From the NCBI RefSeq assembly GCF_019431455.1, contig NZ_JAHYSR010000017.1, forward strand, positions 1-64,000: 64,000 nucleotides of DNA, written 5' to 3'. This stretch comes from Paracoccus bogoriensis (GTDB taxonomy: Bacteria; Pseudomonadota; Alphaproteobacteria; Rhodobacterales; Rhodobacteraceae). Within the stretch, counting starts at the first letter, position 1; each line of letters starts with the position of its first letter. Both the position numbers and the translations under genes were made by a program. This document shows positions 29,455 to 46,574 of the stretch, one piece after another. The notes below the pieces were generated by a model. That model ran no database searches and had not been told where the DNA came from. It was given only the letters and a program-made list of their open reading frames with translations.

Positions 29455-29471
29455 TGGCTGGGGCGGTAGGA
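29455..29471. repeat. attL core (17-bp direct repeat of the tRNA-Gln 3' end)
   Basis: TGGCTGGGGCGGTAGGA is identical to 46558-46574, where it forms the CCA end, acceptor stem and start of the T-arm of tRNA-Gln. The bases on either side differ between the two copies, so this defines the crossover segment and the left end of the element. Confidence 0.88.
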
Positions 29472-29540
29472 CAGTAATCCAACTTTTTCTAAGGCTATAT
29501 TTTCCAATAAGTATCTGACATTCATTGCACATTCTGGCTG

Positions 29541-29555
29541 AGACTGCTACACATG
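29541..29555 (+). repeat. Candidate integrase arm-type site, left
   Basis: AGACTGCTACACATG occurs here, 70 bp inside the left core, and again in the same orientation at 46494-46508, 50 bp inside the right core. Repeats at this distance from both att cores, inside the element, are what tyrosine integrase arm-binding sites look like. A related string (AGACTGTTACA) is at about 36924. Confidence 0.55.
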
Positions 29556-29589
29556 ACTGTAACATACGACCCTTCCACATGGTGCAGTC

Positions 29590-31389
29590 ATGGCCCGGAT
29601 CAGCCACCTTGTCAGACGCGGTTCCGCCTATTCGGCACGAATCCGGGTGCCCCTTGATCTGGTCGAGATCGTGGGCAAGCGGGAACTTGTGAAGGCCCTC
29701 GGAACCACCGAGGAAGCCGAGGCGAAGCGCCGCCTGTATCCGGTCATCGCCAACTGGCAGCGCGAGTTCGACGACCTGCGCGCCCGCCGGGCGCTGGTGC
29801 CTGCCGACCGTGATCATGCCGTCTGGGATCACTACACCGCTACGCTGGACCGTGACGACGAAGCACGGGCGAAGCTGCCGGGGGATGCCGAGATCGAAGC
29901 CGAGCGGGCCGCCGTCATCGCGAAGGCCGAGCGGGGCGAGATCGCCAGCACCGACCCGCTGGTGATCTTCGACGCCACGCTTGATCTGAAGGTCAAACAG
30001 TCGGCGGGCGAACTTGCCGCCGAGGCACGGAAGGTCAAGCTGGCGGAACTGCGCAAGCATCTGTCCAAGGGCGAAACCGCGCTGATCGCCCATGAGGTTG
30101 ACGACTACCTGCACCGCAACCGCCTGCTGGTGGATCGGGGAACGCCCGACTGGATCAGCTTGGCCCGGCACATGATGCGCGCCGAGATCGAAGCCTTGGA
30201 GCGCACCCTTGAGCGCGACCGGGGCGACTACTCCGGCCAGCCCGCCGACCCGCTGGTGAAGCCCGCCATCGGCCAGCGCCGCGAAGCTGCCCGGCCCGGC
30301 GAAACGATCATGGAGATATTCGAGGTCTTCGCACGCGAGAACAAGCGCGGGGTGGCGAAGGATCGGATCGACCAGTGCCGCCGCGACATTGGCACCTTCG
30401 TTGAAATCGTTGGGGCCAGCTTCCCCCTTGCGAAGATCACCAAGGCCGAAGTGCGCGAATGGAAACAGCTTCTGATGCAATACCCGGTCAAGGCCACCGA
30501 GACGAAGGCTTTCGAGGGCATGACGATTCGGCAGATCGTCAAGGCCAATGCCCAGATCGGCAAACCGGTAATCGCGGATCGGACGGTGAACCGCTATCTG
30601 TCCAGCCTGAGCGCCTTTCTGTCCTGGGCGGTAGACAACGGGTATCTGGACCGGAACCCCGTTGAAAAGCTGATGCTCAAGAAAGAGTCGAAAACTCCGA
30701 CCTTCCCCTTCAACACCGAACAGCTTGTCACCCTGTTCAATTCACCCTGGTTCACCGGCTGCAAATGCGCCGACGAATGGCGCAACGTCGCCAAGCCCGG
30801 CCCCGTCCTGATCCGTGATCACCGCTACTGGGTGCCCTTGATCATGCTGTTTTCCGGCGCGAGGCCGGGCGAGATCGGCCAGCTTGCCGTTTCCGATGTT
30901 CGACAGCAACACGGGCACTAGATCATACACATCACGACCGAAGGTGACGACTCTGGCGAAGGCAAGTCGGTGAAGACCGCCGGTTCCATGCGGGTGGTGC
31001 CGGTTCATCCCGAACTGATCCGGCTTGGCTTCATCCGATACCATGAACAGCGGGTGAGGGACGGCGGGGCTGCATTGTTCCCCGGCGCCAAGCGCAATGC
31101 GCGTGGGCAGATGATGGCCGATGTGTCGCGCGAGTTCGGGCGGTATCTGACCCGTATCGGCATCAAGAACGGGCGCGGCCTGTCCCTCTATTCATTCCGC
31201 CACGGGGCGACGGATGCCCTTCGCCGGGCTGGGCATCTGGACCAGCAATTCGGTTTCATCCTTGGCCATGCCGAACCGAGCATGACCGGCAAGTATGGGA
31301 TCATGCCGCAAGGGATGCTGGAACAGCGTGTGGAACTGGTGAACGCCATTGCCTATCCGGGCCTGAGCCTGGATCATCTGGTGGTGTGA
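29590..31389 (+). pseudogene. Tyrosine-type site-specific integrase, interrupted by an amber codon
   Basis: The frame from ATG 29590 encodes an N-terminal DUF6538-like start (MARISHLVRRGSAYSARIRVP), a SAM-like core-binding domain and a catalytic domain. A TAG at 30919-30921 (codon 444) interrupts it. The same frame then continues uninterrupted to 31389, and read-through would give 599 residues. Catalytic Arg425 (GARPGEI) lies before the stop. The FRHGATDALRRAG box, LGH, and the Tyr in MTGKYGIM lie after it. The context H-stop-IIHIT suggests TGG (Trp) mutated to TAG. Without suppression the product lacks its active-site tyrosine. Confidence 0.87.
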
Positions 31390-31424
31390 TAAGATAACAT
31401 TCTTCTTGCAGCACGATTCCGCAA

Positions 31425-31444
31425 TGTGGTATCATGATACCGTT
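31425..31444. promoter_or_regulatory. Shared palindromic control site, copy 1 (before portal gene)
   Basis: The 20-bp block contains the perfect palindrome GGTATCATGATACC (31428-31441). It matches 18 of 20 positions with the block at 36951-36970, which precedes the other structural gene set. It sits just upstream of the portal gene starts. It is likely an operator or activator site for the element's structural genes. Confidence 0.6.
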
Positions 31445-31463
31445 GTGAATGTGCGAGTGCTGC

Positions 31464-32669
31464 ATGGGTATCATGTCCCGCCTTGGCCGAGTTTTCGGCC
31501 AAGGCGCCCCCGATCAGAAGTCCATCCGCCTGACCGACCCCGAGGCGTTCCCGCTGTTCGGGGTGATCGCATCGGCGGCAGGCCAGTCCGTGACCGCCGC
31601 CAGCGCCATGCGGGTGCCCGCTGTGCGGCGGGCCGTGTCGTTGATTGCCGAGTCCGTCGCCACCCTGCCGTTCAAGGTCTATGACCGCGACACGCGCGAG
31701 GCCGTCAGGGACCACCCCGCCTATCCGCTGGCGCATGACTGGGCGAACGACTGGACCAGCGCCGAGGCCCTGCGCGAAGCCCTGACCGCCGATGCGCTGC
31801 TGACCGGCAACGGCTATGCGCAGGTGGTGCGCAATGCCGAAGGCAAGCCGCTGGAACTGCACCGGATGGACCCCGGCGCGGTCTGTATCGACCATGACGA
31901 CTATGGCGAACCCAGCTACCGCATCCGGCTGAAGGACGGCAGCGAAGCCTTCCTGGCCCATGGGGACGTGCTGCACATTCAGGCCATCGGGGGCGTGTCC
32001 CCGATAACCCTGGCGCGCGAGGCCATCGGGCTGGCGCTGGCCGCCGAACACCACCTGGCCGGGTTCTTCAAGAACGGCGCGCGCCCCTCGGGCGTGATCC
32101 TGCACCCGAACAAGCTGGAAGCCGAGACGATGAAGAAACTGGCGGCAAGCTGGTTCCAGTCGCACGGCGGGGAACAGGCCGGGTCCACGGCCATCCTGGA
32201 TGAAGGGATGACCTTCAAGGAAATAGCGGTGAAGCTGGCCGATGCCGAGTTCTCGGAAGTGCGCCGGGAACAGGTGCGCGAGATCGCCCGCGCCTTCAAC
32301 GTGCCGCCCGCGCTGCTTTACGAATTGTCGCGCGGCACCTGGTCGAACTTCGAACAGTCGCACAGCGACTTCCTGACCGGCACCCTGCGCCCCTGGGTGG
32401 CCCGCTGGCAGGCCGCCTATGCGCGGGTGCTGCTGACGCCCGAGGAACGCGCCCGGCTCTATGTCGAGGCCACGCCGGATGACATGCTGTCGGTGGAGTT
32501 CGCCGCCCGCGCCACCGCCTTCAGCCAATATGTCGCCATGCGCGCCCTGACCCCGAACGAGGTCCGGGCCGCGCTGAACCGCCCGCCGCTGCCCGGTGGC
32601 GACGTGCTTCAGAACCCCTTCACCACCAGCGCCACCGCGCCCGCCACCGAGGATGCCCCGAATGTCTGA
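31464..32669 (+). CDS. Phage portal protein (HK97 family)
   Basis: About 401 residues of the HK97-type portal, the dodecameric ring through which DNA enters the capsid. Recognisable stretches are PAVRRAVSLIAESVATLPFKVYDRD, LTGNGYAQVVRN, LAAEHHLAGFFKNGARPSGVI and ALLYELSRGTWSNFEQSHSDFL. Three in-frame ATGs (31449, 31464, 31473) compete, and none has a strong ribosome site. The spacing from the upstream palindrome, compared with the second copy, favours 31464 or 31473. Length is normal and the gene looks intact. Confidence 0.9.
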   Translation: MGIMSRLGRVFGQGAPDQKSIRLTDPEAFPLFGVIASAAGQSVTAASAMRVPAVRRAVSLIAESVATLPFKVYDRDTREAVRDHPAYPLAHDWANDWTSAEALREALTADALLTGNGYAQVVRNAEGKPLELHRMDPGAVCIDHDDYGEPSYRIRLKDGSEAFLAHGDVLHIQAIGGVSPITLAREAIGLALAAEHHLAGFFKNGARPSGVILHPNKLEAETMKKLAASWFQSHGGEQAGSTAILDEGMTFKEIAVKLADAEFSEVRREQVREIARAFNVPPALLYELSRGTWSNFEQSHSDFLTGTLRPWVARWQAAYARVLLTPEERARLYVEATPDDMLSVEFAARATAFSQYVAMRALTPNEVRAALNRPPLPGGDVLQNPFTTSATAPATEDAPNV

Positions 32670-33042
32670 CCTTATCACCCACCGCGCGTTTTTCGGTGAC
32701 AGTGAACGCGCCTTCTGCCTGACCGATGCCATGCTGGCCGAACTGGAACGGATCACCGGGCTGGGCGTGGGGGCCATGTATTTCCAGCTTGTGAACATGG
32801 CCTATCCCGCCGAAACCCTGCGCGAGATCATCCGGCTGGGCCTGATCGGCGCAGGCACCGCGCCCGAGACCGCCAAGCGCCTGTGCGACACCTACGCCGC
32901 GAACCGCCCGCTGGCCGAGACCTTCCCGCTGGCCTTCGAGATCATGGAAGCCCGCTGGACCGGCACCGGCACCGATCAGACCCCCGAGGATGTGGACCGC
33001 GCTGCAAGCGCCGACTTTGAAGCCCTGTCGGTGGCCGCATGA
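32662..33042 (+). CDS. GTA gp10-like / tail-assembly-chaperone-like protein
   Basis: A 126-residue protein beginning MSDLITHRAFFGDSERAFCLTDAMLAELERITG. The short beta hairpin followed by LTxxxLAELE and a helical part resemble the GTA-gp10 family (PF11836) of gene transfer agents and phages. That family sits in tail modules, next to the tape measure gene. Here it lies between portal and protease-capsid, an unusual place. It overlaps the portal gene by 8 bases and the next gene by 4. The family call is by eye. Confidence 0.6.
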   Translation: MSDLITHRAFFGDSERAFCLTDAMLAELERITGLGVGAMYFQLVNMAYPAETLREIIRLGLIGAGTAPETAKRLCDTYAANRPLAETFPLAFEIMEARWTGTGTDQTPEDVDRAASADFEALSVAA

Positions 33043-34547
33043 CCGACCGGCTGGAAATCAAGGCCGCGCTGGCCGTCACAGATCAGGGCGAGATCACCGG
33101 CACCGCCTGGCCCTTCGGTTCGCCCGACCGCGTGGGCGATGTGATCGAGAAAGGCGCCTTCACCGGCCCGGCCACGCTGCCGATGCTGTTCAGCCATGAC
33201 CCCGCGCAGGTGATCGGGGTGTGGGATGAGATCAGCGAAACCGATACCGGCCTGACCGTGAAGGGCCGCCTGCTGGTGGAGGATGTGGAGCGCGCCCGCG
33301 AAGTGCGCGCCATGGTCCGGGCGGGCGCCGTCTCGGGCCTGTCCATCGGCTTCGTCACGAAACAGGCCAGGCGCCATGCCAAGGGCCGCACGATCAGCGC
33401 CCTTGATCTGCATGAAATCAGCCTTGTTGCGGTCCCGGCGCATCCGGGGGCGCGGATTACCTCTGTCAAGTCCGTCACGAGTAATGGAGTTCCCGACATG
33501 GACAATGAAGACCACCAGACCCCGGCCAGTGCGCCGGATATCGACACCAAGGCGTTCAACGCGGTCCTGGCCCGCCTGGACAAGCTGGAAGCCCGGACGG
33601 GCCGCCCCGCCGCGCCCGCTGTCGCGCAGGACACTGACCAGCCCGAGCGCAAGGCGTTCATCACCTTCCTGCAATCGGGCCAGATCGACCAGAAGGCCCT
33701 GACCGTTGCCAATGACGCCCCGGCCTATGTGCTGGCGCCCGAGGAAACGGCGGGCGAGTTCATCCGCAACCTGGTGGAGTTCAGCCCGATCCGGTCCATC
33801 GCGGATGTGCGCACCACCGGCAGCCATACCATCCTGCTGCCCAAGCGAACCGGCATCACGAATGCGCTGTGGGTGGGCGAGACCGCGCCCCGCACCGCCT
33901 CGGAACCGACGTTCGACCAGATGGAAATCGCGGTGAAGGAACTGGCCACGCATGTGGATATCTCGCTGCGGATGCTGGAAGATTCGGCCAATGTCGAAGC
34001 CGAAGTCCGCCTGGCCCTTGCCGAAGACTTCGGCCAGAAGGAGGCGCTGGCCTTCGTCAACGGCAGCACGGCGCTGGAACCGACCGGCTTCATGACCGCC
34101 CCCGGCATTGCCGAGACGAACAACGGCCACGCCGCGAACCTGTCGGCGGATGCGCTGATCGCCCTGCTTTACCAGATGCCCGCGACCTATCGGAACCGGG
34201 GAACCTGGGTGATGAACGGCACCACCCTGGCTGCCGTGCGCAGGCTGAAGGACGGCCACGGCAACTATCTGTGGCAGCCCAGCTATCAGGCGGGCCAGCC
34301 CGAGACGATCCTGGGCCGCCCCGTGGTCGAGGCGCTGGACATGCCGAACATTGCCAGCGGTGCCACGCCGATCATCTTCGGTGACTTCCGCGCGGGCTAC
34401 CGCATCTATGACCGCGTGGCGCTGGACGTGCTGCCCGATCTGCTGACCCAGCGCACCAGCGGCCTGGCCCGCTTCCACGCCCGCCGCCGTGTCGGTGCCG
34501 GTGTGGTGCGCCCGGACGTGTTCCGCAAGCTGAAGATGGCCGCCTGA
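33039..34547 (+). CDS. Prohead protease-major capsid protein fusion
   Basis: A 502-residue protein. Residues 1-145 are an HK97-type prohead protease (U35), with the catalytic His in LFSHDP (H53) and Ser in SGLSIGF (S102). From about residue 155 follows a delta-like segment (DNEDHQTPASAPDIDTKAFNAVLARLDKLEA), then an HK97-fold major capsid protein (SPIRSIADVRTTGSHTILLPKRTG to YRIYDRVALDVLPD). No stop separates them. An internal ATG at 33498 with GGAG eight bases upstream could also yield the capsid part alone. Confidence 0.88.
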   Translation: MTDRLEIKAALAVTDQGEITGTAWPFGSPDRVGDVIEKGAFTGPATLPMLFSHDPAQVIGVWDEISETDTGLTVKGRLLVEDVERAREVRAMVRAGAVSGLSIGFVTKQARRHAKGRTISALDLHEISLVAVPAHPGARITSVKSVTSNGVPDMDNEDHQTPASAPDIDTKAFNAVLARLDKLEARTGRPAAPAVAQDTDQPERKAFITFLQSGQIDQKALTVANDAPAYVLAPEETAGEFIRNLVEFSPIRSIADVRTTGSHTILLPKRTGITNALWVGETAPRTASEPTFDQMEIAVKELATHVDISLRMLEDSANVEAEVRLALAEDFGQKEALAFVNGSTALEPTGFMTAPGIAETNNGHAANLSADALIALLYQMPATYRNRGTWVMNGTTLAAVRRLKDGHGNYLWQPSYQAGQPETILGRPVVEALDMPNIASGATPIIFGDFRAGYRIYDRVALDVLPDLLTQRTSGLARFHARRRVGAGVVRPDVFRKLKMAA

Positions 34548-34553
34548 TCCGTC

Positions 34554-35162
34554 ATGCCCGGCATCGCCCCCGCGCCGGAAGTCCCGCTGCACCATGGCCC
34601 CCATGCCGTGACGCTGCGGGCGTCCCTGCGGGCGGCGGTGGCGCTGGACGCCATGCCGGGCGGCTTCGCCGCCGTCTGGGATGGCCTGGCCGGGCAGAAG
34701 CTGACCACCCTTCACGCGGTGATCCGGGCCGCCGCCACGGATCGGGCCGAGGCCGAACGGCTGATCGCCCATACCGCCACCCATCCGCTTGCGCAGTTTG
34801 CCCTATGCGCGCAAGCGGCCTGCCTCGCCCTGATCGCGGCCTATCTCCCCGTTGATCAGGGCAAGGCACCCCTTTCAAGCGCCCCAGCCCGGCCCATCCG
34901 CGACCACCTGGCCGACCTTTACCGCTTCGGCACCGGCTGGCTGGGCTGGCCGCCGTCCGAAGTCTGGAACGCCAGCCCGGCGGAACTGGAAGCGGCCGTC
35001 CTCGCCCATGTGGATCGGCTGGTGATGATGACGCCCGATGCCGAGGCGCCCGAGGATGCCGCCGCCAGGAACGCGCAGCGCCAGGCAAACATCGCCGTCG
35101 GTCTGGACCCCGAGTTCGAGCGCGACGCCCTGCGCGCCCTGAAGGCGAAGCACTGCGCATGA
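34554..35162 (+). CDS. Tail-assembly-chaperone-like fusion protein
   Basis: A 202-residue protein in two parts. The first 85 residues (VTLRASLRAAVALDAMPGGFAAVWDGLAGQKLTTLHAVI) resemble a GTA-gp10/DUF-type domain. Residues about 110-160 (HLADLYRFGTGWLGWPPSEVWNASPAELEAAVLAHV) resemble the short TAC_6 chaperone of Rhodobacterales phages and gene transfer agents. In those systems the two are separate genes before the tape measure gene; here they appear fused and sit right after the capsid gene. The call rests on sequence pattern only. Confidence 0.6.
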   Translation: MPGIAPAPEVPLHHGPHAVTLRASLRAAVALDAMPGGFAAVWDGLAGQKLTTLHAVIRAAATDRAEAERLIAHTATHPLAQFALCAQAACLALIAAYLPVDQGKAPLSSAPARPIRDHLADLYRFGTGWLGWPPSEVWNASPAELEAAVLAHVDRLVMMTPDAEAPEDAAARNAQRQANIAVGLDPEFERDALRALKAKHCA

Positions 35163-35500
35163 GCCGCCCGCCGCGCCTGTGTGCCTGTGGGGTGATCGTG
35201 GCCGCCGGGGCGATCTGCGCCTGCCAGCGCGACACCATCCGCGCCCGAGGGCGCCGCCACGACGCCCGCCGCCCGAACAGCCGCCAGCGCGGCTATACTC
35301 GCCAGTGGGAAGCCCTGCGGGCCGAGTTCCTACGCCTGCACCCGGCCTGTGTGATGTGCGGTGCGCCCGCTGAACACGTTGACCACATCACCCCGCACAA
35401 GGGGAACCCGGCGCTGTTCTGGAACTGGAACAACCTGCAAGCCCTCTGTGCGCACTGCCACAACAGCGTGAAGCAACGGCAGGAACGCGCCGATGAATGA
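35159..35500 (+). CDS. HNH endonuclease
   Basis: A 113-residue HNH nuclease with the motif AEHVDHITPHKG...NLQALCAHCHNS. Zinc-binding Cys pairs are CVMC and CAHC. In cos-packaging phages such HNH proteins assist terminase in cutting concatemers, and the gene usually sits beside terS. Here terS lies 3.6 kb downstream. It overlaps both neighbours by a few bases. The N-terminus (CACGVIVAAGAICACQ) carries extra Cys residues that may form a second zinc knuckle. Confidence 0.88.
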   Translation: MSRPPRLCACGVIVAAGAICACQRDTIRARGRRHDARRPNSRQRGYTRQWEALRAEFLRLHPACVMCGAPAEHVDHITPHKGNPALFWNWNNLQALCAHCHNSVKQRQERADE

Positions 35501-35789
35501 CCTGCCCGAACGCTGGAACCCCGAACGCAACCTGTGGCGCGAAGTCCTGTTCCTGGCCGTTGACGAAGCCCTGTTTGGCCCGAAGCACGTCAACGACCGC
35601 CAGCACTTCATCCGCATGTGCCAAGAAGCCCGCGACTACCTGACCAAGCCCAGCCGCGACCTGTCCATGGTCTGCAACCTGGCCGGGCTGGACATGCAGC
35701 CGGTCATGGAGCGGATGCGGGCAAAGATCGGCAAGGCGGCTGCGCCCGAGGTGCTGGCGGTGGGGCGGAGGAAATGCCAGACGGCATAG
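35493..35789 (+). CDS. Conserved-looking phage protein of unknown function
   Basis: A 98-residue mainly helical protein (NLWREVLFLAVDEALFGPKHVNDRQHFIRMCQEARDYL). It overlaps the HNH gene by 8 bases and ends directly at the convergent stop of the next minus-strand gene. The pattern RDYLTKPSRDLSMVCNLAGLDMQPVMERMRAKI is reminiscent of small proteins found near terminase/HNH genes in alphaproteobacterial prophages. I cannot assign a function. Confidence 0.65.
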   Translation: MNDLPERWNPERNLWREVLFLAVDEALFGPKHVNDRQHFIRMCQEARDYLTKPSRDLSMVCNLAGLDMQPVMERMRAKIGKAAAPEVLAVGRRKCQTA

Positions 35790-36212
35790 CTACTGGCGCA
35801 TGTTCAATCGGATCATTACCGCGATAACGTGTTCAGTCACTAAGTCGGAAAAATATCTGATTTCCTCGATGCTAACTTCTTCGCGGTTCAGTTGGTCACT
35901 GGCAGTTAGCAGGGCGCTTGAATATAACTGCGACGGGCACAGCGCAACGAGCGCGAGGAAGTGTCTTCTATACTGAGCGTAAGTTTCCAAAGGCGGCGGT
36001 ATTAAGTTAGATGATCCGTCTATTACTGCTCGATATTGCGCGTTACGTTCCCTTTGAGTTTGAAGGTGCCGTTCAGCTACGCATTCAGCAAGAAAAATTG
36101 AATTTGGCAAAAATAAGCTGCTTGCTTGCTCGCTAGCGACTGGAAGTGGAAATAAAGCAAGGAGTGAGACCAACAGCATTGCAATTGGATTCGCCGACGG
36201 CTTACGAGACAT
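35790..36212 (-). CDS. Secreted small protein, unknown; AT-rich cargo gene 1
   Basis: A 140-residue protein on the strand opposite to all structural genes. A signal peptide (NPIAMLLVSLLALFPLPVASEQ) precedes a helical mature part with two Cys (AECVAER and VALCPSQ) that could form a disulphide. Base composition is clearly more AT-rich than in its neighbours, and codon use is mixed, which indicates separate acquisition. It fits a lysogenic-conversion (moron) gene, but no family is recognised. Confidence 0.6.
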   Translation of the reverse strand: MSRKPSANPIAMLLVSLLALFPLPVASEQASSLFLPNSIFLAECVAERHLQTQRERNAQYRAVIDGSSNLIPPPLETYAQYRRHFLALVALCPSQLYSSALLTASDQLNREEVSIEEIRYFSDLVTEHVIAVMIRLNMRQ

Positions 36213-36341: not shown

Positions 36342-36779
36342 CTACCTGATTTCCGCCATGTCAGCACATTGAAGAAGAAGGCGAACATGGCGCTGAAATA
36401 CTTCGGTGTATTCGCGCGGGCCATATCGCGGCGCGGCGCGCAGGGCATCTTGTAATTCACGGAACAAGAGATTGTCCATTGGGCGCAATCGATTCCCAAG
36501 TTCTTGCCTAGTGATCCCGTTCTCTTCAGCAATCAAAGCAGGTAGCTCTTCAATGAAAAACGACGTAAGTCTCCGATAATGGCGAAACTCTGCCTCCGAA
36601 ACATTCAGAAATATCCCGATTCTTTCAAGCTCAGAAGACTGCTGCAGTGACAACTCGACAGCTACTGCTCCGGGTCCACAGATTTCATATTGATCCAAGC
36701 GTATGATCGTTTGGCCGTTTGCCAACTCGCCATTCATTAGAAATAGTGCGATCATAGCTACTTTGGTTATGTGATTCAT
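36342..36779 (-). CDS. Secreted small protein, unknown; AT-rich cargo gene 2
   Basis: A 145-residue protein with a signal peptide (ITKVAMIALFLMNGELANGQ). The mature part is helical (LSLQQSSELERIGIFLNVSEAEFRHYRRLTSFFIEELPALIAEENG) with Cys in YEICGPG and LLLQCAD. A ribosome site GAGG lies ahead of the ATG. Like the next gene it is AT-rich, minus-strand and likely periplasmic. About 130 bases separate the two. It was probably transferred together with its neighbour; function unknown. Confidence 0.6.
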   Translation of the reverse strand: MNHITKVAMIALFLMNGELANGQTIIRLDQYEICGPGAVAVELSLQQSSELERIGIFLNVSEAEFRHYRRLTSFFIEELPALIAEENGITRQELGNRLRPMDNLLFRELQDALRAAPRYGPREYTEVFQRHVRLLLQCADMAEIR

Positions 36780-37001: not shown

Positions 37002-37304
37002 ATGCCCCCGCCGCTGCCCCTCGCCCTGATCCGGGCGCATCTGAACCTGGACGATGACCGCGATTCGGACCTGCTGACCCATTATGCCCATGTGGCCGCG
37101 CAGCGGGTGCAGGCTTACACCGGCCAGCCATTCGCCCCCGACAACCCGCTGATGGCACAGGCCGCCCTCTTGCTGGTCGCGCATCAGTATGAGGCGCGCA
37201 AGGCCGTCAGCTTCGCCAATGGCTACCGGCTGCCCTTCGGGGTGCATGACCTGCTGTCGCCCCTGAAGGACCGGATCACCGGCCACCAGCCCGAGGCCGC
37301 GTGA
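37002..37304 (+). CDS. Head-tail connector protein (gp6/Phage_connect_1-like)
   Basis: A 100-residue helical adaptor. It starts PLALIRAHLNLDDDRDSDLLTHYAHVAAQRVQAYTGQPF, the standard pattern of the HK97 gp6-like adaptor that forms a ring under the portal. It leads an eight-gene operon with 1- to 4-base overlaps up to the tape measure gene. The ribosome region GTGAGTAACGAGT resembles that of the tape measure gene. Confidence 0.85.
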   Translation: MPPPLPLALIRAHLNLDDDRDSDLLTHYAHVAAQRVQAYTGQPFAPDNPLMAQAALLLVAHQYEARKAVSFANGYRLPFGVHDLLSPLKDRITGHQPEAA

Positions 37305-37762
37305 TGGCCAAGCTGGTGACAGGTTCCGATGGGCTGGCCCGGCGGCTGGCCGCCATCCCCGATGATGTGCTGGACGCCCTGCGACCGGCGCTGACCAGAT
37401 CGGTGGCCGAGATCGCCGCCGATGCCCGCACGCTGGCCGAAGCATCGCGCCGCACGGGCGCGCTTGTGGCGTCCATCGCAGAAACAGGGCCAGGCGAGAC
37501 GACCCCGGCCTTCGCCTCGGATGGTGGCCAGCGCACCGCCGGGCCGAACGAAGCCTTCGTGACCGCTGGCAGTCCCGAGGCCCGGCATGGCCATCTGGTG
37601 GAGTTCGGCACCGGCGAACGCTTCCACAAGGACGGCCACCCCACCGGCATCATGCCCGCCGCGCCCTTCCTCTTGCCTGCCTGGCGGCTGAACCGGGCGC
37701 GGGTGGAACGGCGGATCAAGCGGGCGATCAGTCAGGGCGCGAAGAAGGCGGTGGCGGAATGA
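37304..37762 (+). CDS. HK97 gp10-family neck protein
   Basis: A 152-residue protein of the HK97-gp10 family. The start (AKLVTGSDGLARRLAAIPDDVLDALRPALTRSVAEIAADARTLA) and the typical HxxLVEFGTGERFHKDGHPTGIMPAAPFLLPAW block are present. It helps build the neck/tail completion complex. I chose the ATG at 37304, which overlaps the preceding TGA; a GTG at 37301 is one codon upstream. Confidence 0.85.
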   Translation: MAKLVTGSDGLARRLAAIPDDVLDALRPALTRSVAEIAADARTLAEASRRTGALVASIAETGPGETTPAFASDGGQRTAGPNEAFVTAGSPEARHGHLVEFGTGERFHKDGHPTGIMPAAPFLLPAWRLNRARVERRIKRAISQGAKKAVAE

Positions 37763-38492: not shown

Positions 38493-39133
38493 AACCCGTG
38501 GCCATCTTCCTATACGAACTGTCCGGCAAGTCTGCCGAAACCTTCGCGCAAGCGGGCTGGGATTGCTACTGCATCGACATTCAGCACCCCGGCAACACCA
38601 GCAAGGGCAACATTCACTTCATCCGGGCCGACGCCCGCCGCTGGAAGCCGACCCGCGACATGGTAGAGCGTTGCCGGTTCTTCGCGGCCTTCCCGCCCTG
38701 CGACGATCTGGCCGTGTCCGGTTCGCGCTGGTTCAAGGGCAAGGGGCTTCATGCGCTGTCCGACGCCATCGAACTGTTCGCGGTGGCCGCCGAATGGGCC
38801 GAGTTCTTCGAAGTGCCCTATCTGATCGAGAACCCGCGCAGCACGATCAGCACCTATTGGCGCAAGCCGGATTATGCCTTCGACCCCTGCGACTATTCCC
38901 AGCTTGCACCCTCGGATCACTACACCAAGAAAACCTGTCTCTGGACCGGCGGCGGCTTCGTCATGCCGCCCAAGGCGCCGCTGCCCGGCCCGCCTGCCGT
39001 CAACGTGATCCGCGACATGAAGGGGAAGGGCCGCGACCGGGCGAACGCGCGCAGCGTAACGCCCATGGGCTTCATGCGTGCGGTGTATGATGCCAACTTC
39101 GGGGCGCCCGTGGCGCAGTCGGTGGCGGCATGA
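38489..39133 (+). CDS. DNA cytosine methyltransferase-like protein
   Basis: A 214-residue protein with an SAM-like N-terminal fold (VAIFLYELSGKSAETFAQAGWDCYCIDIQHP) and the loop AFPPCDDLAVSGSRWF, which matches the PPC motif of cytosine-C5 methyltransferases. LIENPRSTISTYW fits the ENV-like motif. It lacks a separate target recognition domain of usual size. It lies between head closure and terS and overlaps both by 4 bases. It may mark or protect the element's DNA; activity is unproven. Confidence 0.7.
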   Translation: MKPVAIFLYELSGKSAETFAQAGWDCYCIDIQHPGNTSKGNIHFIRADARRWKPTRDMVERCRFFAAFPPCDDLAVSGSRWFKGKGLHALSDAIELFAVAAEWAEFFEVPYLIENPRSTISTYWRKPDYAFDPCDYSQLAPSDHYTKKTCLWTGGGFVMPPKAPLPGPPAVNVIRDMKGKGRDRANARSVTPMGFMRAVYDANFGAPVAQSVAA

Positions 39134-39522
39134 GCAAGCACCTGCGCGGGGTGAAGCCTGCTGTTCGGCCCGATCAGGAACCCCTGAGCCGCGTTCCGAA
39201 GGGGCCTGCCTGGTTCGGTGCCCATGCGCGCGAGGAATGGAAGCGGGTGCTGCCGATGCTGGTAGCGCGGCGGGTGATCTGTGCCGCCGATTTGGCGCAG
39301 GTGGAAACCTACTGCTGCATGGCCGGGTTGGTGCGCCAGATCGAACAGGAACGCCAGCGAAGCGGCGGGCTGATCGACGTGAAGCTGTTCGGGATGCAGA
39401 ACCGGGCCGCGCAGACCGCGCGCCAGATCGCGGCCACCCTCGGGCTGGACCCGGTGAGCCGGGCGCGGCTGGGCAGCGCCGCCCCCGAGGATGACGCCGA
39501 CAACCCGCTGGCGGTGACATGA
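39130..39522 (+). CDS. Phage terminase small subunit, P27 family
   Basis: A 130-residue protein with the P27 pattern: PLSRVPKGPAWFGAHAREEWKRVLPMLVARRVICAADLAQVETYCCMAG and a C-terminal NRAAQTARQIAATLGLDPVSRARL. It recognises the packaging site and recruits the large subunit. It overlaps the large-subunit gene by 4 bases. Its position after the neck genes, not before the portal gene, is unusual. Confidence 0.88.
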   Translation: MSKHLRGVKPAVRPDQEPLSRVPKGPAWFGAHAREEWKRVLPMLVARRVICAADLAQVETYCCMAGLVRQIEQERQRSGGLIDVKLFGMQNRAAQTARQIAATLGLDPVSRARLGSAAPEDDADNPLAVT

Positions 39523-41135
39523 CCGCCGCCAGCACCTTTCCGGCCTGGATATACGATGGTTCGCCTATCCCCGATCCGCTGGGCCATGGCGAACGGGCGG
39601 TGACGTTCCTGAAGCGCCTGCGCCACCCCGCCAGCACCGCGCCGGGCCGGGCCCTCCAGTTGCACGACTGGCAGGAACGGATCGTGCGGCGCATCTATGG
39701 CCCGCGCCACGCCGATGGCAGCCGGATCGTGAAGACCGTGCTGCTCTTGTTGCCGCGCGGCAACCGCAAGACCAGCCTGGCCGCCGCCCTGGCGCTTCTG
39801 CACCTGTTCGGCCCGGAAACCCGCCCCGCTGGGCAGGTGATCTTCGCGGCCTGCGACCGCGAACAGGCGTCCATCGGCTTCAAGGAGGCCGCCAACATCA
39901 TCCGCGAAGATCGCCGCCTGTTGAACGCAGTCACGATCCGCGATGCCTTCAACAGCAAGAAGCAGATCACCTTCGGGCGCAACGGGTCCACCCTGACCGC
40001 GCTGGCCAGTGACGGGGGCGCCGCCCATGGCCTGACCCCCAGCTTCACCCTGATTGACGAAATCCATGCCTGGCGGGGCCGCGACCTGTGGGAAGCGATC
40101 AAGAGCGGGCAGGCCAAGACCGATGACACGCTGATGGTGATCGCCACCACCGCCGGGCGCGGGTCCGAAGGGCTGGCCGCCGATCTGTTCGGCTATGCGG
40201 TCAAGGTGGCGGCGGGCGAGATCGTCAACCCCGAGTTCCTGCCGGTGCTGTTCATGGCCGAACCCGGCGACGACTGGCAGGATGAAGCGGTCTGGCAGCG
40301 GGTGAACCCCGGCCTGGCCCATGGCTTTCCGTCCCTGTCGGGGCTGCGCGCCCTGGCGAAGGAAGCCGAAGGCAACCCGGCGGAACTGGCCAGCTTTCGG
40401 CAATTCAACCTGAACATATGGCAGGCCAACAGCCGTGATCCGCTGTTCGACCTTGCCGCCTATGACGCGCGCCGGTTCGATGACGACCCCGCCGACCTGG
40501 ACGGGCTGCCCGCTTATGTGGGCGTGGATATGTCTGTTTCGGGCGATCTGACCGCCGTGGCCATCGCCTTTCGCCATGCCGATGGACAGATCACCCTGCG
40601 CGCCCGCGTCTTCGTGCCCGAGGATGGCTTGCGCGAACGATCCGCCCGCGACGGGGCGCCTTACCGCCGTTGGGCCGATGACGGGCTGATCACCCTGTGC
40701 CCCGGCCCGATCATCGACAACGCCATGGTGGAAGATCATGTGCGCGAGTTGTGCGCTGCCCATGAGGTGCAGGAACTGGCCTTCGATCCGCACCTGGCCC
40801 GCGTGGTGATGCAGCACCTGCACGATGATGGCCTGCCGGTCTTCGCCTTTCCGCAACGCCCGCTGACCATGGGGGTGGCGGCGGGCGATCTGGAACGGAT
40901 CGTCACCGGGCGGCTGATCCGGCATGACGGCTGCCCGGTGCTGCGCCATCACTTCGGGAATGTTGTCACCAGCCGCAACCCGACCACCGGGCTGGTGCGG
41001 ATGCACAAGGCCAACACCGCCAGCCGGATTGATGCCGCCGTGGCCAGCGCCATGGCAGTGTCGCGCGCCGTCACCGCCCACAACACCAGATCGCGATACG
41101 CCAGCCCCGAGGTTCCGGGGCTGGTGATGCTGTAA
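39519..41135 (+). CDS. Phage terminase large subunit
   Basis: A 538-residue packaging motor. The ATPase domain has a Walker A variant LLPRGNRKTS (residues 78-87) and Walker B plus catalytic Glu in LIDEIHAW (178-185), with TTAGRG as the coupling motif. The C-terminal nuclease domain carries Asp in YVGVDMSVSGDLTAV and a later DPHLARVV region. It is of the HK97/T1-like lineage that usually pairs with P27-type small subunits. Full length, and it appears functional. Confidence 0.93.
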   Translation: MTAASTFPAWIYDGSPIPDPLGHGERAVTFLKRLRHPASTAPGRALQLHDWQERIVRRIYGPRHADGSRIVKTVLLLLPRGNRKTSLAAALALLHLFGPETRPAGQVIFAACDREQASIGFKEAANIIREDRRLLNAVTIRDAFNSKKQITFGRNGSTLTALASDGGAAHGLTPSFTLIDEIHAWRGRDLWEAIKSGQAKTDDTLMVIATTAGRGSEGLAADLFGYAVKVAAGEIVNPEFLPVLFMAEPGDDWQDEAVWQRVNPGLAHGFPSLSGLRALAKEAEGNPAELASFRQFNLNIWQANSRDPLFDLAAYDARRFDDDPADLDGLPAYVGVDMSVSGDLTAVAIAFRHADGQITLRARVFVPEDGLRERSARDGAPYRRWADDGLITLCPGPIIDNAMVEDHVRELCAAHEVQELAFDPHLARVVMQHLHDDGLPVFAFPQRPLTMGVAAGDLERIVTGRLIRHDGCPVLRHHFGNVVTSRNPTTGLVRMHKANTASRIDAAVASAMAVSRAVTAHNTRSRYASPEVPGLVML

Positions 41136-41147: not shown

Positions 41148-43655
41148 ATGTCCGAGGTTCAGGGCCTGATCATCAGCCTGGAGGCCCGCACCGCGCAGCT
41201 TGAACGCGGGCTGAAGCGGGCCAATGAGGCGCAGCGCCGGGCCGCCACCCAGATGGAGCGCCGCGCCCGCCAGTCTGCCGAGCGGATGGAAGCGGCCTAT
41301 GCCCGCGTGCCCGAGGGCATCGCCGCCAGCTTCAACCGGCTGCGCACCCTGGCCTTGCCCTTCGCGGGCGGGCTGCTGGGCGGGGTGATCGGCGGGCTGG
41401 GGGTGGAGCGGCTGACCAGCACGGTGCGCGCCCGGCTGGCGGATATTTCCGAGTCCATCGGCAAGGCCGCCGACCGCGCCAGCATCGGGGTGGAGGCGCT
41501 GCAAGGGCTGCAACACGGCTTCGGGCTGGCCGGGGTGGCCACGAACGAGTTTAACGGGGCGCTGGAACGCTTCGCGCAGCGGGTGGGCGAGGCCGCGACC
41601 GGCGGCGGGGCGCTGGCCACGGTGCTGGACCGCTACCGGATCGGCATCCGCACCGCCAATGGCGAGATGCGCAGTCAGATGGACCTGTTGCGCGACCTGG
41701 CCGAACTGATCCGCCGCGCGCCCTCGGATCAGGAGCGCAGCGCCATCGCGCAGGCCGCTTTCGGCAATGCGGGCCGTGCCATGGTGCTGGCACTGCGCGA
41801 AGGCGGGGCCGGGCTGGATGCGATGATCGAGCGCGCCCGCGAAGGCGGGTTCGTGATCGAAGAAAGCCTGGTGCGCCGGGCCGAGGAACTGGACGACCGC
41901 TTTTCTGACCTGACGAACCGTATCGGCATCTTCGGCAAGCGCCTGGCGGTGACGCTGGCCGATGCCGCCGTGGAACTGGCCGACTTCCGGGCGCGGCTGG
42001 ATGAAATCTTCAGCACCGAGGCCGAGGGCCGGGCGAACCTGGGCGATGACATCTATGATGCGCTGGCCCGCGACCGCGACATGGTGGAGGCGCAGGCCGA
42101 GACACTGGCCCGGCTGCGCCAGCAATACGCGGCCCTGGGCGACGAAGCCCGCACTGCGTCCAATGCGCTGGCGGGCGCAGTGCCGCAGATCGCCGCCTGG
42201 GGCTATACCGAACAGGCCCGCGCCCTTGCCGATGTGGCCGCCGAGATGCGCCAGCTTGCATCCGACTTCGGGGATGGCCGGATCAGCGCCGAAGACTTCA
42301 CCGGCCGCATGGCCGATCTGCAACAGACCGCCAGCACCGCCTTCGCGACCCTGGAAGCGGGCGACCGGGTGGAGTTCGGGGGCGTCATCGCGCAACTGAA
42401 TCGGCTGGGCGGGGTGATCACCGGCATCATCGCGCTGGCCAACACCATGACCGGCGCGCTGGCGCGGGCGGCGGGCGTGGCACCCGATCAACAGGCACAG
42501 CGGGCGCTGCGCCAGCGCCATGAGGCCGAAGCCGAGTCGATCCGCAACTATGAAGCGATGCGCCGGGCGAACGAAGCCTTCGCCGCGACCGAACAGGCCC
42601 GCAACGCCGCGACCAGCGAACAGCTTCGCCTGGAACGCGAGATAGAGGCCGTGCGCCGCCGGGCTGCGGAGGCCGGGGCGACCTTGACCGCGCAGCAAGC
42701 CGAGGATGCCGCCCGCGCCGCCCTGGCCGCTGCCGATGCCCGCGCTGCCGCTGAGCGGGCGGGCCGATCCTCGGGCCGGGGTGGTGCTGGCATCAACCTG
42801 GATGACTTCGCCCGCGAGGCACAGGCCATCCGCGACCGCACCATGGCGCTGGAAACCGAAGCCACGGTGCTGGCCAGCCTGACGCTGATGCAGCGTCGCC
42901 ATGGCGAAGCCGCCGCCTTTGCGCAGGCCAAGACCGAACTTCTGGTGGCCGCGCAACGGGCCGGGCGCGAGATCACCCCCGCGCTGGAAGCCGAGATCGA
43001 CCGGCTGGCCGATGCCTATGCCCGCGTGGCCGAACGGGCGGGCGAGGCGCGCAGCGCCATGCAGCGGGTGCAGCAAGAGTCGCGCCGGGGTGCTGATGCT
43101 TTCACCGATCTGTTCATGGCCGGGCTGGACGGGGCCGATGCCTTCAAGGCCGCGCTGCTGGACCTGGCCCGCACGATCCTGCGCAATCAGCTTCTGCGCC
43201 TGTTCATGATGATGCCGGGCGTGGGCAAGCTGGGCGGGCTGTTGCTGCCGCCTTTTGCCGAAGGCGGCTACACGGGCGACGGCGGCAAGTATGAACCGGC
43301 GGGTGTGGTCCACAAGGGCGAATACGTCTTCAGCAAGGAGACGGTGCAGCGCCTTGGTGCCGACAACCTGGACAGACTCCATAGGAGCGCCAGGCAGGGC
43401 TATGCCTCGGGCGGGCTGGTGGGTGCCAGCGGACGGGTGATGAAGGCCGCCAGCGGGCTTCCCTTGGAGTCTGCGCGGGCATCCGCACCCGCCATCACCA
43501 TCAACGCCCCGGTGACGGTGAACGCGAACGGCGGCACCCCCGAGGCGAACGCCGACCTGGCCCGCCAGGTGGCCGATCAGACCGAACGCGCCATGCGGGG
43601 CCTGATCCAACAGGAACTGGTGCGCCAGATGCGCCCCGGCGGGATGCTGCGCTAG
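41148..43655 (+). CDS. Phage tail tape measure protein
   Basis: An 835-residue protein. The start [46 protein letters not shown] is coiled coil. A glycine-rich hydrophobic stretch follows ([19 protein letters not shown]). Long helical segments rich in Ala, Glu and Arg come next, then the typical tape-measure end [35 protein letters not shown]. It sets tail length in siphophages. A ribosome site AAGGAG precedes the ATG. No tail tube, chaperone pair or distal tail gene flanks it, which is abnormal. Confidence 0.88.
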
Positions 43656-43876: not shown

Positions 43877-43955
43877 CGTTTCTCCGAATTTCTTGCCTGT
43901 TATATGTCTTCTTGAGGTAGAGTTATACTATACAAGCAAGAAATTCGGAGAAACG
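43877..43955. repeat. Perfect 20-bp inverted repeat around a 39-bp AT-rich spacer
   Basis: CGTTTCTCCGAATTTCTTGC (43877-43896) is repeated exactly in inverse orientation at 43936-43955. The spacer is AT-rich and contains TTATACTATA. The arms and spacer stand out from the GC-rich surroundings. An origin or packaging element, a cruciform, or an invertible segment are all possible. Confidence 0.85.
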
Positions 43956-44133: not shown

Positions 44134-44167
44134 TATTCAGGCCATCAGCAACAGCAAGGGTGCCGTG

Positions 44168-44611
44168 ATGGCCTTCAATCTCAAACTGCCGGTGGAGCGC
44201 GGAAAACAGCTCCAGATGATCGCGGAAGCCGAGGGCAAGACCGTGGTGGACGTGATCACCGACCACATCCGGGCCAAGGTGGCGGCGGGCGTCATCCCCG
44301 AGGCCATCCCCGGTATCGACGTGGCCAAGGACGGCCCGGCGATCAGCATCAAGGCGCCGGGCTTCGAAGCATCGGTTCCGCTGAACGAAGGTCCGACGCT
44401 GGCCGATCTGTTGAAGGACGCCGCCAGTGCCACCGACGACCCCGAACGCAAGGCCCGCTGGATCGAAGGGCTGGCCGCCCTGTCCGGGGTGAAGGTCAAG
44501 CGCATGGGCGCGGGCGTCAAGCTGGTCTCGCCCCTCACGGGCAAGGAATACCCGCTTGCCTCGGGCGTGGCCGCAGACCTGGCCGACCAGATCAAGCTGG
44601 CCGCCGAATAA
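44168..44611 (+). CDS. Ribbon-helix-helix-like putative regulator
   Basis: A 147-residue protein. Residues 1-37 (AFNLKLPVERGKQLQMIAEAEGKTVVDVITDHIRAKV) follow the beta strand plus two helices of RHH (CopG/Arc-like) DNA-binding proteins. The remainder (KDAASATDDPERKARWIEGLAALSGVKVKRMGAGVKLVSPLTGKEYPLASG) is unrecognised. It follows a palindrome at 44118. It may be the element's only transcription regulator, since no CI-, Cro- or AlpA-like gene is present. The start was set at the ATG after a GTG at 44165. Confidence 0.55.
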   Translation: MAFNLKLPVERGKQLQMIAEAEGKTVVDVITDHIRAKVAAGVIPEAIPGIDVAKDGPAISIKAPGFEASVPLNEGPTLADLLKDAASATDDPERKARWIEGLAALSGVKVKRMGAGVKLVSPLTGKEYPLASGVAADLADQIKLAAE

Positions 44612-44674: not shown

Positions 44675-45202
44675 ATGGAATCCCAAGACGAAACGCAAAC
44701 GCGCGGGCTGTCCGAGACGCGGAAAAAGCTGATCCGCGACTACCTACAGAAGATCGAGGCCGACAATGCGCGGCAGCGCGATGAGCGCAACGCCCGGCGC
44801 TGGAAAGCCGAACGCGACCCCGAAGAATATGAGCGGCAGAAAGCCAAGCAGCGCCACCAGTATGCCGATGCACAGGGCGGTTCTGTGCGGTCCTATTCGA
44901 AGATCGAAGCCACCACGCGGACCGAACATGCGGAGAAGGCGAAAGCCCGCGACGCTGCGCGCCAGAAGGCGCGTTACCACGCAATGACCCCCGCCGAACG
45001 TCAGGCGAAGTCCGATCAGATCGCGGACAAGCGGTTTGTCGAACGCCGCCGGGAAAAAGGCATCCCCGAAGACTTGATCCAAGCGGCGCTGGCCGTGCGG
45101 ATCAGAGAACGTGAGGCCGAACGCGCTGCGAAGGCGCAACAGGAAACGGATGAAGCTGCGATGCGCGCCTTGGCCACCTACGGCATCATGGGCGGCTCCT
45201 AG
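44675..45202 (+). CDS. Highly charged helical protein, unknown
   Basis: A 175-residue protein made almost entirely of Arg/Lys/Glu/Ala-rich helix (ADNARQRDERNARRWKAERDPEEYERQKAKQRHQYADAQ). It has a probable coiled coil at each end and no hydrophobic segment. It may bind nucleic acid. It lies 63 bases after the RHH-like gene in the same direction, probably in the same operon. No family recognised. Confidence 0.6.
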   Translation: MESQDETQTRGLSETRKKLIRDYLQKIEADNARQRDERNARRWKAERDPEEYERQKAKQRHQYADAQGGSVRSYSKIEATTRTEHAEKAKARDAARQKARYHAMTPAERQAKSDQIADKRFVERRREKGIPEDLIQAALAVRIREREAERAAKAQQETDEAAMRALATYGIMGGS

Positions 45203-45260
45203 CTATCCGGCCAACTGGCTATATAGCTACTAAGCTACTGATAAAACACAACATTCAGGC

Positions 45261-45290: not shown

Positions 45291-45322
45291 CACCCCATGG
45301 AGCACCCCAAGGAGCCGCCCCG

Positions 45323-45508: not shown

Positions 45509-45740
45509 GTTTGCAAATCGGCGCTGAACTTGGCGAGTTTAGAAATTTTCTGCAAACCCCCGACCACAACGACCTGATATAAAAAGATAAAGACTGCAAA
45601 GTTGTCCCGACAAAAGCCTAAGGACAGACCCCGAAAACGTGTCTAATAGTAGGTTTGCCCGCAGCGGTTCCCGCCGCCACGGGCAACACTTGGCGGGTGT
45701 GACAGCACCGGCCCTTTGCAACGCTCAAACGGAGAAACCC

Positions 45741-46019
45741 ATGTCCGAGCACTACCAGACCACCCACTACAGCAATCGCCAGAGTGAGATCGTCATGCCT
45801 AACACTTACATGACCATCACCGAAGCGGCAACGCCCCACAAGCACGGAGCGGTGACCGTCCAGTTCAACGGCCTGACCGTTCATGTCGGGTTCGACATTC
45901 ATGCGGAAGTCCCGGTTGACCAGAAGGAAGACCTGATCCGCATGGCAGCGCTTCGGTGCGTCGCTGACTTCTTCGATTCCTATCGCGGTGCCCAGGCCCT
46001 CGAAAGCGAGGCCGTGTGA
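45741..46019 (+). CDS. Small protein of unknown function (92 aa)
   Basis: A 92-residue protein starting MSEHYQTTHYSNRQSEIVMPNTYMTITEA. Beta-rich middle (GAVTVQFNGLTVHVGFDIHAEVPVD) and a helical end. GGAG precedes the ATG by 8 bases; an upstream extension to 45639 lacks support. The stop overlaps the next ATG, so the two are coupled. No family recognised. Confidence 0.6.
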   Translation: MSEHYQTTHYSNRQSEIVMPNTYMTITEAATPHKHGAVTVQFNGLTVHVGFDIHAEVPVDQKEDLIRMAALRCVADFFDSYRGAQALESEAV

Positions 46020-46381
46020 TGGCGTTGAATCCTGTGTTCCTGAAGCTGATCCGGCAGACGGCTGATGACTACGATCCCGAGAAGCATCTGAGGCGTGAGG
46101 TGAGGTTTCAGGTCAACAAGCATCGGAACAGGATCAGCAAGGCGCGAAGCGACTTGTTCAACCAGTCCTACCTGCCGCGTATCAGCGTTCTGGCGCAGCT
46201 TATGCGCCAGGATCGGGAGGCGGTGATCGCGCATTACCGCGCGAAGGAACTGCGCAACGTTGCCGACTCCATGCACGAAGGCAACTACCGCACCCTTGGC
46301 CTTGCGCGGAAGCGTCTTGAGCGCGTGAATGAGTTGGCAAACACGTTTGCAGAAGTCGATCAGGAACGCCGCTTGACCTGA
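46019..46381 (+). CDS. Small basic helical protein of unknown function (120 aa)
   Basis: A 120-residue basic protein (EKHLRREVRFQVNKHRNRISKARSDLFNQSYLPRISVLAQLMRQDREAVIAHYRAKELRNV) with predicted helices throughout. It is the last gene before the right end of the element and is coupled to its upstream neighbour. It could act with the integrase as a recombination factor or bind DNA (inference from position and charge only). Confidence 0.55.
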   Translation: MALNPVFLKLIRQTADDYDPEKHLRREVRFQVNKHRNRISKARSDLFNQSYLPRISVLAQLMRQDREAVIAHYRAKELRNVADSMHEGNYRTLGLARKRLERVNELANTFAEVDQERRLT

Positions 46382-46405
46382 TCACCAGCAAGCCGACTCA
46401 CACGG

Positions 46406-46430
46406 GGCGGGCATCCTTGGGGTGCCCGCC
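46406..46430. terminator. Strong hairpin closing the element's rightmost operon
   Basis: GGCGGGCA (46406-46413) pairs with TGCCCGCC (46423-46430), 25 bases after the last gene. Only a short pyrimidine tail follows (TCTG), so termination may need Rho. Confidence 0.45.
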
Positions 46431-46493
46431 TCTGACGTTACACGCCCCGCTTACGAACCGAAACGGGCGCGCGGTCCATGTGGAGCATCCACC

Positions 46494-46508
46494 AGACTGC
46501 TACACATG
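46494..46508 (+). repeat. Candidate integrase arm-type site, right
   Basis: AGACTGCTACACATG, identical in sequence and orientation to 29541-29555, and 50 bases inside the right core. See the left copy. Confidence 0.55.
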
Positions 46509-46557
46509 TCCTGATTGGTAGCCAGACAAGTCTTTGATTTTCATTGATATTTTGAGA

Positions 46558-46574
46558 TGGCTGGGGCGGTAGGA
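46558..46574. repeat. attR core (overlaps tRNA-Gln 3' end)
   Basis: This 17-bp sequence is identical to 29455-29471. It restores the CCA end and acceptor stem of tRNA-Gln, so integration leaves the tRNA gene intact. Confidence 0.88.

Follow-up and report, generated by a model that had tools for sequence, protein, structure and literature searches.

The 64,000-nucleotide stretch of Paracoccus bogoriensis DNA analyzed here (positions 1 to 64,000 of contig NZ_JAHYSR010000017.1, hereafter the window) holds an element of 17,120 bp, at positions 29455-46574, that begins and ends with the same 17 bp. The left copy (attL core, 29455..29471) matches 46558-46574 exactly, and the right copy (attR, 46558..46574) is the terminal part of a tRNA-Gln gene (46558-46632, minus strand). 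Gene identities come from hidden Markov model (HMM) scans of the window open reading frames (ORFs) against Pfam and PHROGs. These scans confirm the gene content given in the initial annotation: a portal, a protease-capsid fusion, four neck genes, an HNH endonuclease, small and large terminase subunits (TerS and TerL) and a tape measure protein (TMP), with no recognizable tube, tip, fiber, lysis or replication gene. The element belongs to a conserved family that probably moves as a phage satellite.

The integrase, head, neck, packaging and TMP genes and four small ORFs all lie on the plus strand, the exception being two minus-strand accessory ORFs, and the structural ORFs are open. The tyrosine integrase gene (29590..31389; phrog_1 in both pieces, DUF6538 in the first) is interrupted by an in-frame TAG at 30919-30921, with an identical reading frame on either side; it is uninterrupted in relatives such as L019 and L038. 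The portal gene (31449..32669; PF04860, 6.7e-93) is followed by a gene of the GTA-gp10/TAC_11 family (32662..33042; PF11836, 6.9e-23; phrog_8985), whose ORF is open from 32596 and whose start we assigned at 32662, where GTA stands for gene transfer agent. Next come a prohead protease fused to the major capsid protein (33039..34547; PF04586, PF05065), a 202-residue protein with a TAC_6 match (34554..35162; PF09550 at residues 120-151), an HNH endonuclease that is likely to act in packaging (35159..35500; PF01844, phrog_589) and a 98-residue protein that matches no family and is found by HMM in many relatives (35493..35789). The neck genes encode a head-tail connector (37002..37304; PF05135, phrog_40), an HK97 gp10-like neck or tail completion protein (37301..37762; PF04883, phrog_5), a DUF3168 or gp17-type tail terminator (37759..38181; PF11367, 4.8e-13) and a head closure protein (38166..38492; PF05521, phrog_25). 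TerS (39130..39522; PF05119, phrog_83) and TerL (39519..41135; PF20441, PF03354, phrog_9) precede an 835-residue TMP (41148..43655), which matches phrog_10574 (2.3e-39) and other TMP families and has no Pfam match. Among the window ORFs scanned there was no tube, tip, fiber, lysis, primase, repressor or AlpA match apart from two labels: the TAC_11 protein is titled a tube protein, and the last part of the TMP, at its C terminus, matches a PHROG labelled endolysin. A complete tail module was found neither in the window, by Pfam and PHROGs, nor in the relatives examined.

The capsid gene is flanked by two predicted tail assembly chaperone genes. The first encodes the protein at 32662-33042, for which a tail-tube reading, taken from the PF11836 title 'Phage tail tube protein, GTA-gp10' and from phrog_8985, was considered; the predicted fold rules against it. 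In the AlphaFold2 model (predicted local distance difference test score, pLDDT, 86) a beta hairpin is followed by helices. The best viral Foldseek matches of this model were two functionally unnamed proteins, of which one is from phage RcapNL, and named tail assembly chaperones stood just below them in the list, at E 0.007 and weaker. The 202-residue protein (pLDDT 90.6) has the same hairpin-helix order with a helical extension at its C terminus, within which the TAC_6 match falls, and hhalign aligned the shared part with the TAC_11 profile (probability 85%, E 6.5e-6). From predicted fold and gene order we infer that the two would be gpG-like and gpGT-like chaperones encoded as separate genes. 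Four bases are shared between the gpG-like gene and the start of the capsid gene, which leaves no room for a frameshift extension. PMC4493119 describes lambda-type tails in which gpG associates with the TMP and the T portion of gpGT brings in the tube protein.

The same arrangement is widespread. A TerL scan of a genome collection of 84,980 species recovered 226 relatives, of which the best 80 were annotated (TerL called in 79); these 80 loci are nearly all titled Alphaproteobacteria, and relatives occur in both Rhodobacterales and Hyphomicrobiales. The 10-kb flank limit removes the left end of some loci, and we counted as full those with at least 9 kb upstream and 3.5 kb downstream of TerL, which gave 67 loci including the window. 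Portal and capsid genes were each found in 66 of these, TerS in 64, gp10 in 63, DUF3168 and TMP in 62 each (one of the TMP calls, in L056, being a 52-residue remnant), TAC_6 in 55, TAC_11 in 50 and integrase in 49. A TMP of more than 400 residues starts at most 150 bp from TerL in 60 of the 67, and gene order is collinear in 59, trivially so in L101, which has a TerL match only; the remaining eight are L098, L099, L100, L107, L108, L112, L114 and L116. Across 198 genomes of the host family, the capsid gene was present in eight (own included).

Relatives also resemble the window element in how they are bounded. Among 73 loci tested (the window and four plasmid-collection loci included), 46 had a tRNA duplication of at least 14 bp, the 27 without one including loci with their left end cut off; 44 of the 73 are flanked by tRNA repeats 15.8-19.1 kb apart (median 17.9). 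One of the 46, L101, proved not to be an element, and L056, with a repeat spacing of 8.7 kb, is an internally deleted copy. The tRNAs used across relatives are Gln, Val, Pro, Thr, Ser, Leu, Met, Gly and Lys. Three relatives are plasmids of 16.9-23.4 kb: a 17.5-kb plasmid of P. marcusii with a replication gene and, when read across the record start, an 842-residue TMP; a 23.4-kb plasmid of M. populi with a TMP and MipZ; and a 16.9-kb plasmid of R. mucosa (Roseomonas) in which these HMMs detect neither TMP nor chaperones.

Congeners show the site without the element. The gene to the right of the element was detected in 20 of 21 genus genomes (own included), and tRNA-Gln adjoins it in all 15 congener flanks fetched. 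None of these 15 flanks, of which 12 are informative in having more than 4 kb on the element side, contained portal, capsid or TerL; in one informative flank (L219) a distant integrase-like match lies beside the same tRNA. On the opposite side of the insertion, a match was found for one gene in one congener only. By visual inspection, the ORFs at 28437-29184, on the left side of the element, resemble response-regulator fragments that lie in different frames.

Viral collections yielded the same kind of element and no full-tailed kin. A TerL scan of IMG/VR gave 556 relatives, and the best 80, once annotated, had the same arrangement wherever the contig was long enough. No called gene of these 80 loci had a BLAST match to reference tail or lysis genes, a test that takes three phages and one GTA-like cluster as its reference and misses diverged tip genes, to the detriment of our interpretation. 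Scanning with the 202-residue chaperone recovered 266 relatives; of the best 80, 69 were new and were annotated, 42 of these were long enough to print, and 40 of the 42 carried a TMP. The TMP itself recovered 203 relatives, with 67 new ones annotated among the best 80, and the TMP directly follows TerL in 66 of the 67. These viral-contig scans favor near relatives. Against 50,697 phage records, the capsid protein reached less than 60% identity in its best match. The initial annotation had asked whether close relatives carry a complete tail and lysis module; no full-tailed close relative with the same head block was found in the best 80 genome loci or in the annotated matches of the three viral-contig scans (best 80 each). 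Sewage contig MW091529 was rejected as a virome copy of the element because tube, TMP and peptidase genes are annotated in its record. One element (L332), in a viral contig of 51 kb, adjoins a second integrase and further genes, perhaps in tandem with another prophage.

The family is graded in its tail content. At one extreme, head-only loci have no TMP, TAC_11, TAC_6, gp10 or DUF3168 by these HMMs (full loci L112 and L114; cut loci L103, L113 and L115; the Roseomonas plasmid). At the other, a scan of ten proteins from more distant loci against Pfam and PHROGs gave a match to a tail tube family (phrog_158) in five loci (L014, L098, L108, L109 and L111); PF08813 is matched by four of these five proteins, with only the L014 protein above the Pfam cut-off. 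Four of the distant loci (L102, L106, L107 and L110) have a protein that matches another family of tail assembly chaperones, phrog_313, and one further L107 protein matches a family of unknown function. Downstream of the TMP, we scanned 150 of 162 called proteins (12 short ones omitted). Seven of the 150 match Phage_min_tail, which we take to be the family of lambda gpM, and seven proteins of about 116 residues cluster right after the TMP (L040, L043, L062, L063, L090, L091 and L111); presumably these are the same set, the L043 and L062 proteins having both matched when tested singly. PHROGs place one downstream protein in a distal tail family; a BLAST match had pointed to L106, whose Pfam scan was empty. 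Lambda_tail_I (PF06805) is matched by 2 of 50 cargo or downstream proteins. The earlier statement that tail genes are missing is thus right for the window element and wrong for the family as a whole, given the tube-family and Phage_min_tail proteins of these relatives.

Where the tape measure is kept, the chaperones are usually kept with it. Counted over 72 complete loci, a set that takes in the window and the plasmid-collection loci, both TMP and TAC chaperone genes occur in 62, a chaperone only in two, a TMP only in five and neither in three (Fisher p 0.0084, a value that overstates independence, because the rows are related, and so lends our interpretation less than it seems to). Three of the TMP-only loci (L102, L106 and L110) have the phrog_313 chaperone between portal and capsid. 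A recount with phrog_313 gives 65, 2, 2 and 3 (p 0.0016), a figure that is biased because phrog_313 was looked for in TMP-positive loci alone.

Six relatives were compared with the window for identity and for the ratio of nonsynonymous to synonymous substitution rates (dN/dS). Against Rhodobacter sp. SY28-1 (L037), the capsid is 86% identical (dN/dS 0.14) and TerL 89% (dN/dS 0.10), with portal, capsid, TerS and TerL all at dN/dS 0.10-0.17, whereas the TMP is 39% identical, with a dN/dS of 0.56 that is near saturation. Five of the six pairs show far lower identity in the TMP than in the capsid. A TMP that is kept but changes fast would fit exchange to match different helpers, and relaxed constraint may also underlie it. 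The window TMP matches phage TMPs such as that of RcapNL.

Considered together, the gene content, the collinearity, the tRNA-bounded units of similar size, the small plasmids, the absence of a complete tail module and the absence of the element from the same site in congeners lead us to consider it probable that the 17.1-kb tRNA-flanked element is one of a conserved family and spreads as a phage satellite, its particles completed with a helper's tube and tip. We infer a chimeric tail in which the head, terminator, chaperones and ruler of the satellite would be combined with the tube and tip of the helper. As a helper enters late gene expression, the TerS, TerL and HNH proteins of the satellite would pack satellite DNA into satellite capsids. 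The gpG-like chaperone would keep the satellite TMP soluble, and the C-terminal extension of the gpGT-like chaperone would bring helper tube subunits to it. Tail length would then follow the satellite's ruler, and 835 residues would give about 125 nm at 0.15 nm per residue. The satellite terminator would then cap the tube and join it to the satellite head, while the helper would supply the receptor-binding tip and lysis. In lambdoid phages a ribosomal frameshift sets the G:GT ratio; here the presence of two separate chaperone genes would do so.

For a broader proposal we would give even chances. It holds that this family, across Alphaproteobacteria, captures helper tubes through a chaperone pair flanking the capsid gene, in which a free gpG-like protein and a permanently fused gpGT-like protein replace the frameshift; that ruler and terminator dictate tail length; and that the grades, from head only, through the addition of chaperones, terminator and ruler, to the addition of a tube or tip-proximal gene, record a stepwise gain or loss of tail independence in which the receptor-binding end is always borrowed.

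Several observations weigh against the satellite interpretation or parts of it. The satellite lifestyle is a prediction from gene content; no induction, replication or anti-helper gene was recognized in the window element; and the window copy may be stranded, because its integrase is broken by an in-frame stop. Terminal repeats are absent from all 80 loci on viral contigs, a set that includes many short ones. As to the chaperones, a few viral proteins matched by the TAC_11 model in Foldseek carry a tail tube title (E 0.3 and weaker), and searches of both chaperone models against PDB folds gave no match at E <= 0.001. No chaperone was found in L111 and L116, which have a TMP and neither TAC_11 nor TAC_6, and two loci have chaperones with no HMM-detected TMP. 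In phage TP901-1, according to PMC4493119, a permanent G-T fusion alone gives normal-looking but non-infectious particles; the G:GT ratio, and hence a separate G gene, must then matter. Rapid change is also not peculiar to the TMP: the 98-residue protein is as variable, and against L040 the capsid (51% identity) is about as diverged as the TMP (52%) beside a TerL at 83%, which implies that capsids have been exchanged too.

How far do these points favor other explanations? The element might be a siphophage that lost its tube, tip, lysis and replication genes after integration. The stop codon in the integrase, the two minus-strand accessory ORFs inside the block and the clear decay of some relatives, such as the 8.7-kb copy L056, would all suit such a deleted prophage, which we regard as very unlikely: many genera share the end gene, the order and a similar size, the structural ORFs are open with dN/dS below 1, and no undeleted ancestor appeared among the 80 genome loci or in the three viral-contig scans. 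By the criterion of the initial annotation, a satellite is supported over a deleted prophage: in both Rhodobacterales and Hyphomicrobiales the gene order recurs, often between tRNA repeats, and no complete tail module accompanies it in the relatives examined. A different possibility, unlikely though not negligible, is an ordinary capsid-forming satellite that takes helper tails built on the helper's TMP, its own TMP and chaperones serving against the helper or being spare. The head-only lineages indicate that a TMP is not needed for such a lifestyle, and the rapid evolution of the TMP would also be accommodated; yet TMP, chaperone and terminator genes are retained together in most full loci, and alternative chaperones occupy the slot in three.

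The remaining two alternatives concern the tail itself. The donor could be the host's GTA rather than a phage, given that the TAC_11 protein belongs to the family of GTA g10, that a cluster resembling a GTA in gene order and size is present in the host, and that the 80 best TerL-scan loci are nearly all alphaproteobacterial. We hold this to be quite improbable, as the element's proteins are not close to the host cluster (portal 31% identity) and its TMP matches those of phages such as RcapNL. Least credible to us is a tailless or short-tailed particle whose TMP would serve DNA ejection without a tube; no tube gene was recognized in the window element, as it would predict, but a tail terminator and two chaperones have been kept, and five relatives encode a tube-family protein.

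The genome that carries the element also offers a possible helper. Contig C14 (L125, L126) contains a prophage with primase, TerL, portal, capsid, tube, a 734-residue TMP and further tail genes, and this prophage may be a candidate helper, judging from its gene content; its TMP is weakly similar to that of the element (27%). Contig C34 ends in a TMP-like ORF, parts of which match the element TMP at 33-63%. A GTA-like cluster, recognized by gene order and size only, lies at C44:105000-124900 (L036); as a close relative of the element it was rejected on the 31% identity of its portal.

Between the TMP and the right end there is an inverted repeat (43877..43955) of two perfect 20-bp arms around a 39-bp AT-rich center. 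Perfect inverted repeats of 15-31 bp around a mostly AT-rich center follow the TMP in 21 of 68 loci, mostly with different sequences, and the same architecture occurred in none of 204 shuffles (three-base blocks) and none of 64 capsid stretches. In the window, a 140-base stretch comprising the repeat and a neighboring GC-rich hairpin folds as DNA with a z of -9.3. The repeat is a candidate origin or a candidate operator of the gene that follows. The four ORFs that follow (44165-46381) have no Pfam or PHROG match. The first encodes a conserved 148-residue protein (44165..44611), with an N-terminus that by eye alone resembles ribbon-helix-helix proteins, from the largest downstream cluster (29 of 150 proteins); the second, a conserved and highly charged protein of 175 residues (44675..45202), belongs to a cluster of 13 of the 150; and two small ORFs without a family match fill 45639..46381.

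Accessory genes interrupt the structural block at two places. The minus-strand ORFs encode 140 residues (35790..36212; no PADLOC or Pfam match) and 145 residues (36342..36779); the ORFs within 35790-36779 are of similar size with apparent signal sequences by eye, and relatives carry other genes at this cargo spot. Between head closure and TerS is a gene whose PHROG is labelled DNA methyltransferase (38489..39133, plus strand; phrog_757, 5.8e-58). It is about 90% identical in L020 and L029, whose TerS is only 58-61% identical, which suggests, from these identities, a recently exchanged cassette. In some relatives, defense-like cargo (Septu PtuA, type IV restriction) lies between head and neck genes or after the TMP, according to a PADLOC scan of 50 cargo and downstream proteins, with matches among the 25 families listed of 172.

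Comparison with known satellites places the element near, and outside, the capsid-forming phage-inducible chromosomal islands (cf-PICIs). As defined in PMC10690885, cf-PICIs encode their own portal, protease, capsid, connectors, HNH, TerS and TerL and use helper tails. All of these head and packaging genes are present in the window element. It has att repeats beside a broken integrase that is uninterrupted in relatives such as L019 and L038. Unlike cf-PICIs, the element has no recognized AlpA, primase or repressor. Its TerS and TerL lie after the neck genes, and a TMP is present in 62 of the 67 full loci. The regulatory and replication module of a PICI includes genes such as alpA and pri-rep. 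Scans of the window ORFs gave no match to genes of that kind; downstream of the TMP in the window and relatives, the complete Pfam list for the 150 proteins holds no AlpA, primase or repressor and one DnaB-like match, and the 25 PHROG families listed of 32 include none of PICI type except the DnaB-like one. On these scans the element is not a canonical PICI. MulchRoom, a Streptomyces phage satellite, likewise has encapsidation genes, and its authors infer a borrowed helper tail (PMC10690885); it belongs to a separate lineage and host phylum, and the term 'tape measure' does not occur in that paper.

The element also has features in common with RcGTA and with RcapNL-type Rhodobacter phages: a protein of the TAC_11 family, and a TMP with a relative in RcapNL. 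RcapNL has a tube and further tail genes, and the host GTA-like cluster has more genes after its TMP; the element has neither. GTA tail clusters comprise g9 and g12-g15 along with head genes, and g9 and g12-g15 were absent from the window element in the Pfam and PHROG scans.

Satellites were earlier described as taking helper tails whole. The family described here would let the matching parts of a tail be probed, namely chaperone extension with tube, TMP end with tip, and terminator with tube, and it would uncouple tail length from host range, the ruler being the satellite's and the receptor-binding tip the helper's. In searches aimed at the hosts, with most subscription journals outside their coverage, we found no publication naming this alphaproteobacterial family, its chaperone pair or its grades; a prior description is possible. 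The initial annotation held that a satellite with a tape measure, setting its tail length itself, would be new; satellites with a TMP have since been published: some cf-PICIs carry putative tmp genes (PMC12987554, figure legend), and the PLE satellites of Vibrio cholerae form chimeric tails in which a TMP and a chaperone of the satellite are used together with the tube and tip of the helper (PMC12987554). PLE11, PLE1 and PLE4 resemble the element in having a TMP and a tail assembly chaperone without a full tail. PLE differs, in a comparison by description only, in remodeling the helper capsid protein and using the contractile tails of ICP1, whereas the element has its own capsid gene and siphophage-like genes. 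We file it as a kind of capsid-forming satellite that would work like a PLE tail, and not as a PICI, because scans for the regulatory and replication genes of PICIs gave no match in the window ORFs. The PLE work concerned one satellite family that builds hybrid tails (PMC12987554), and the elements described here suggest that such tails are common in another bacterial class and among elements that form their own heads.

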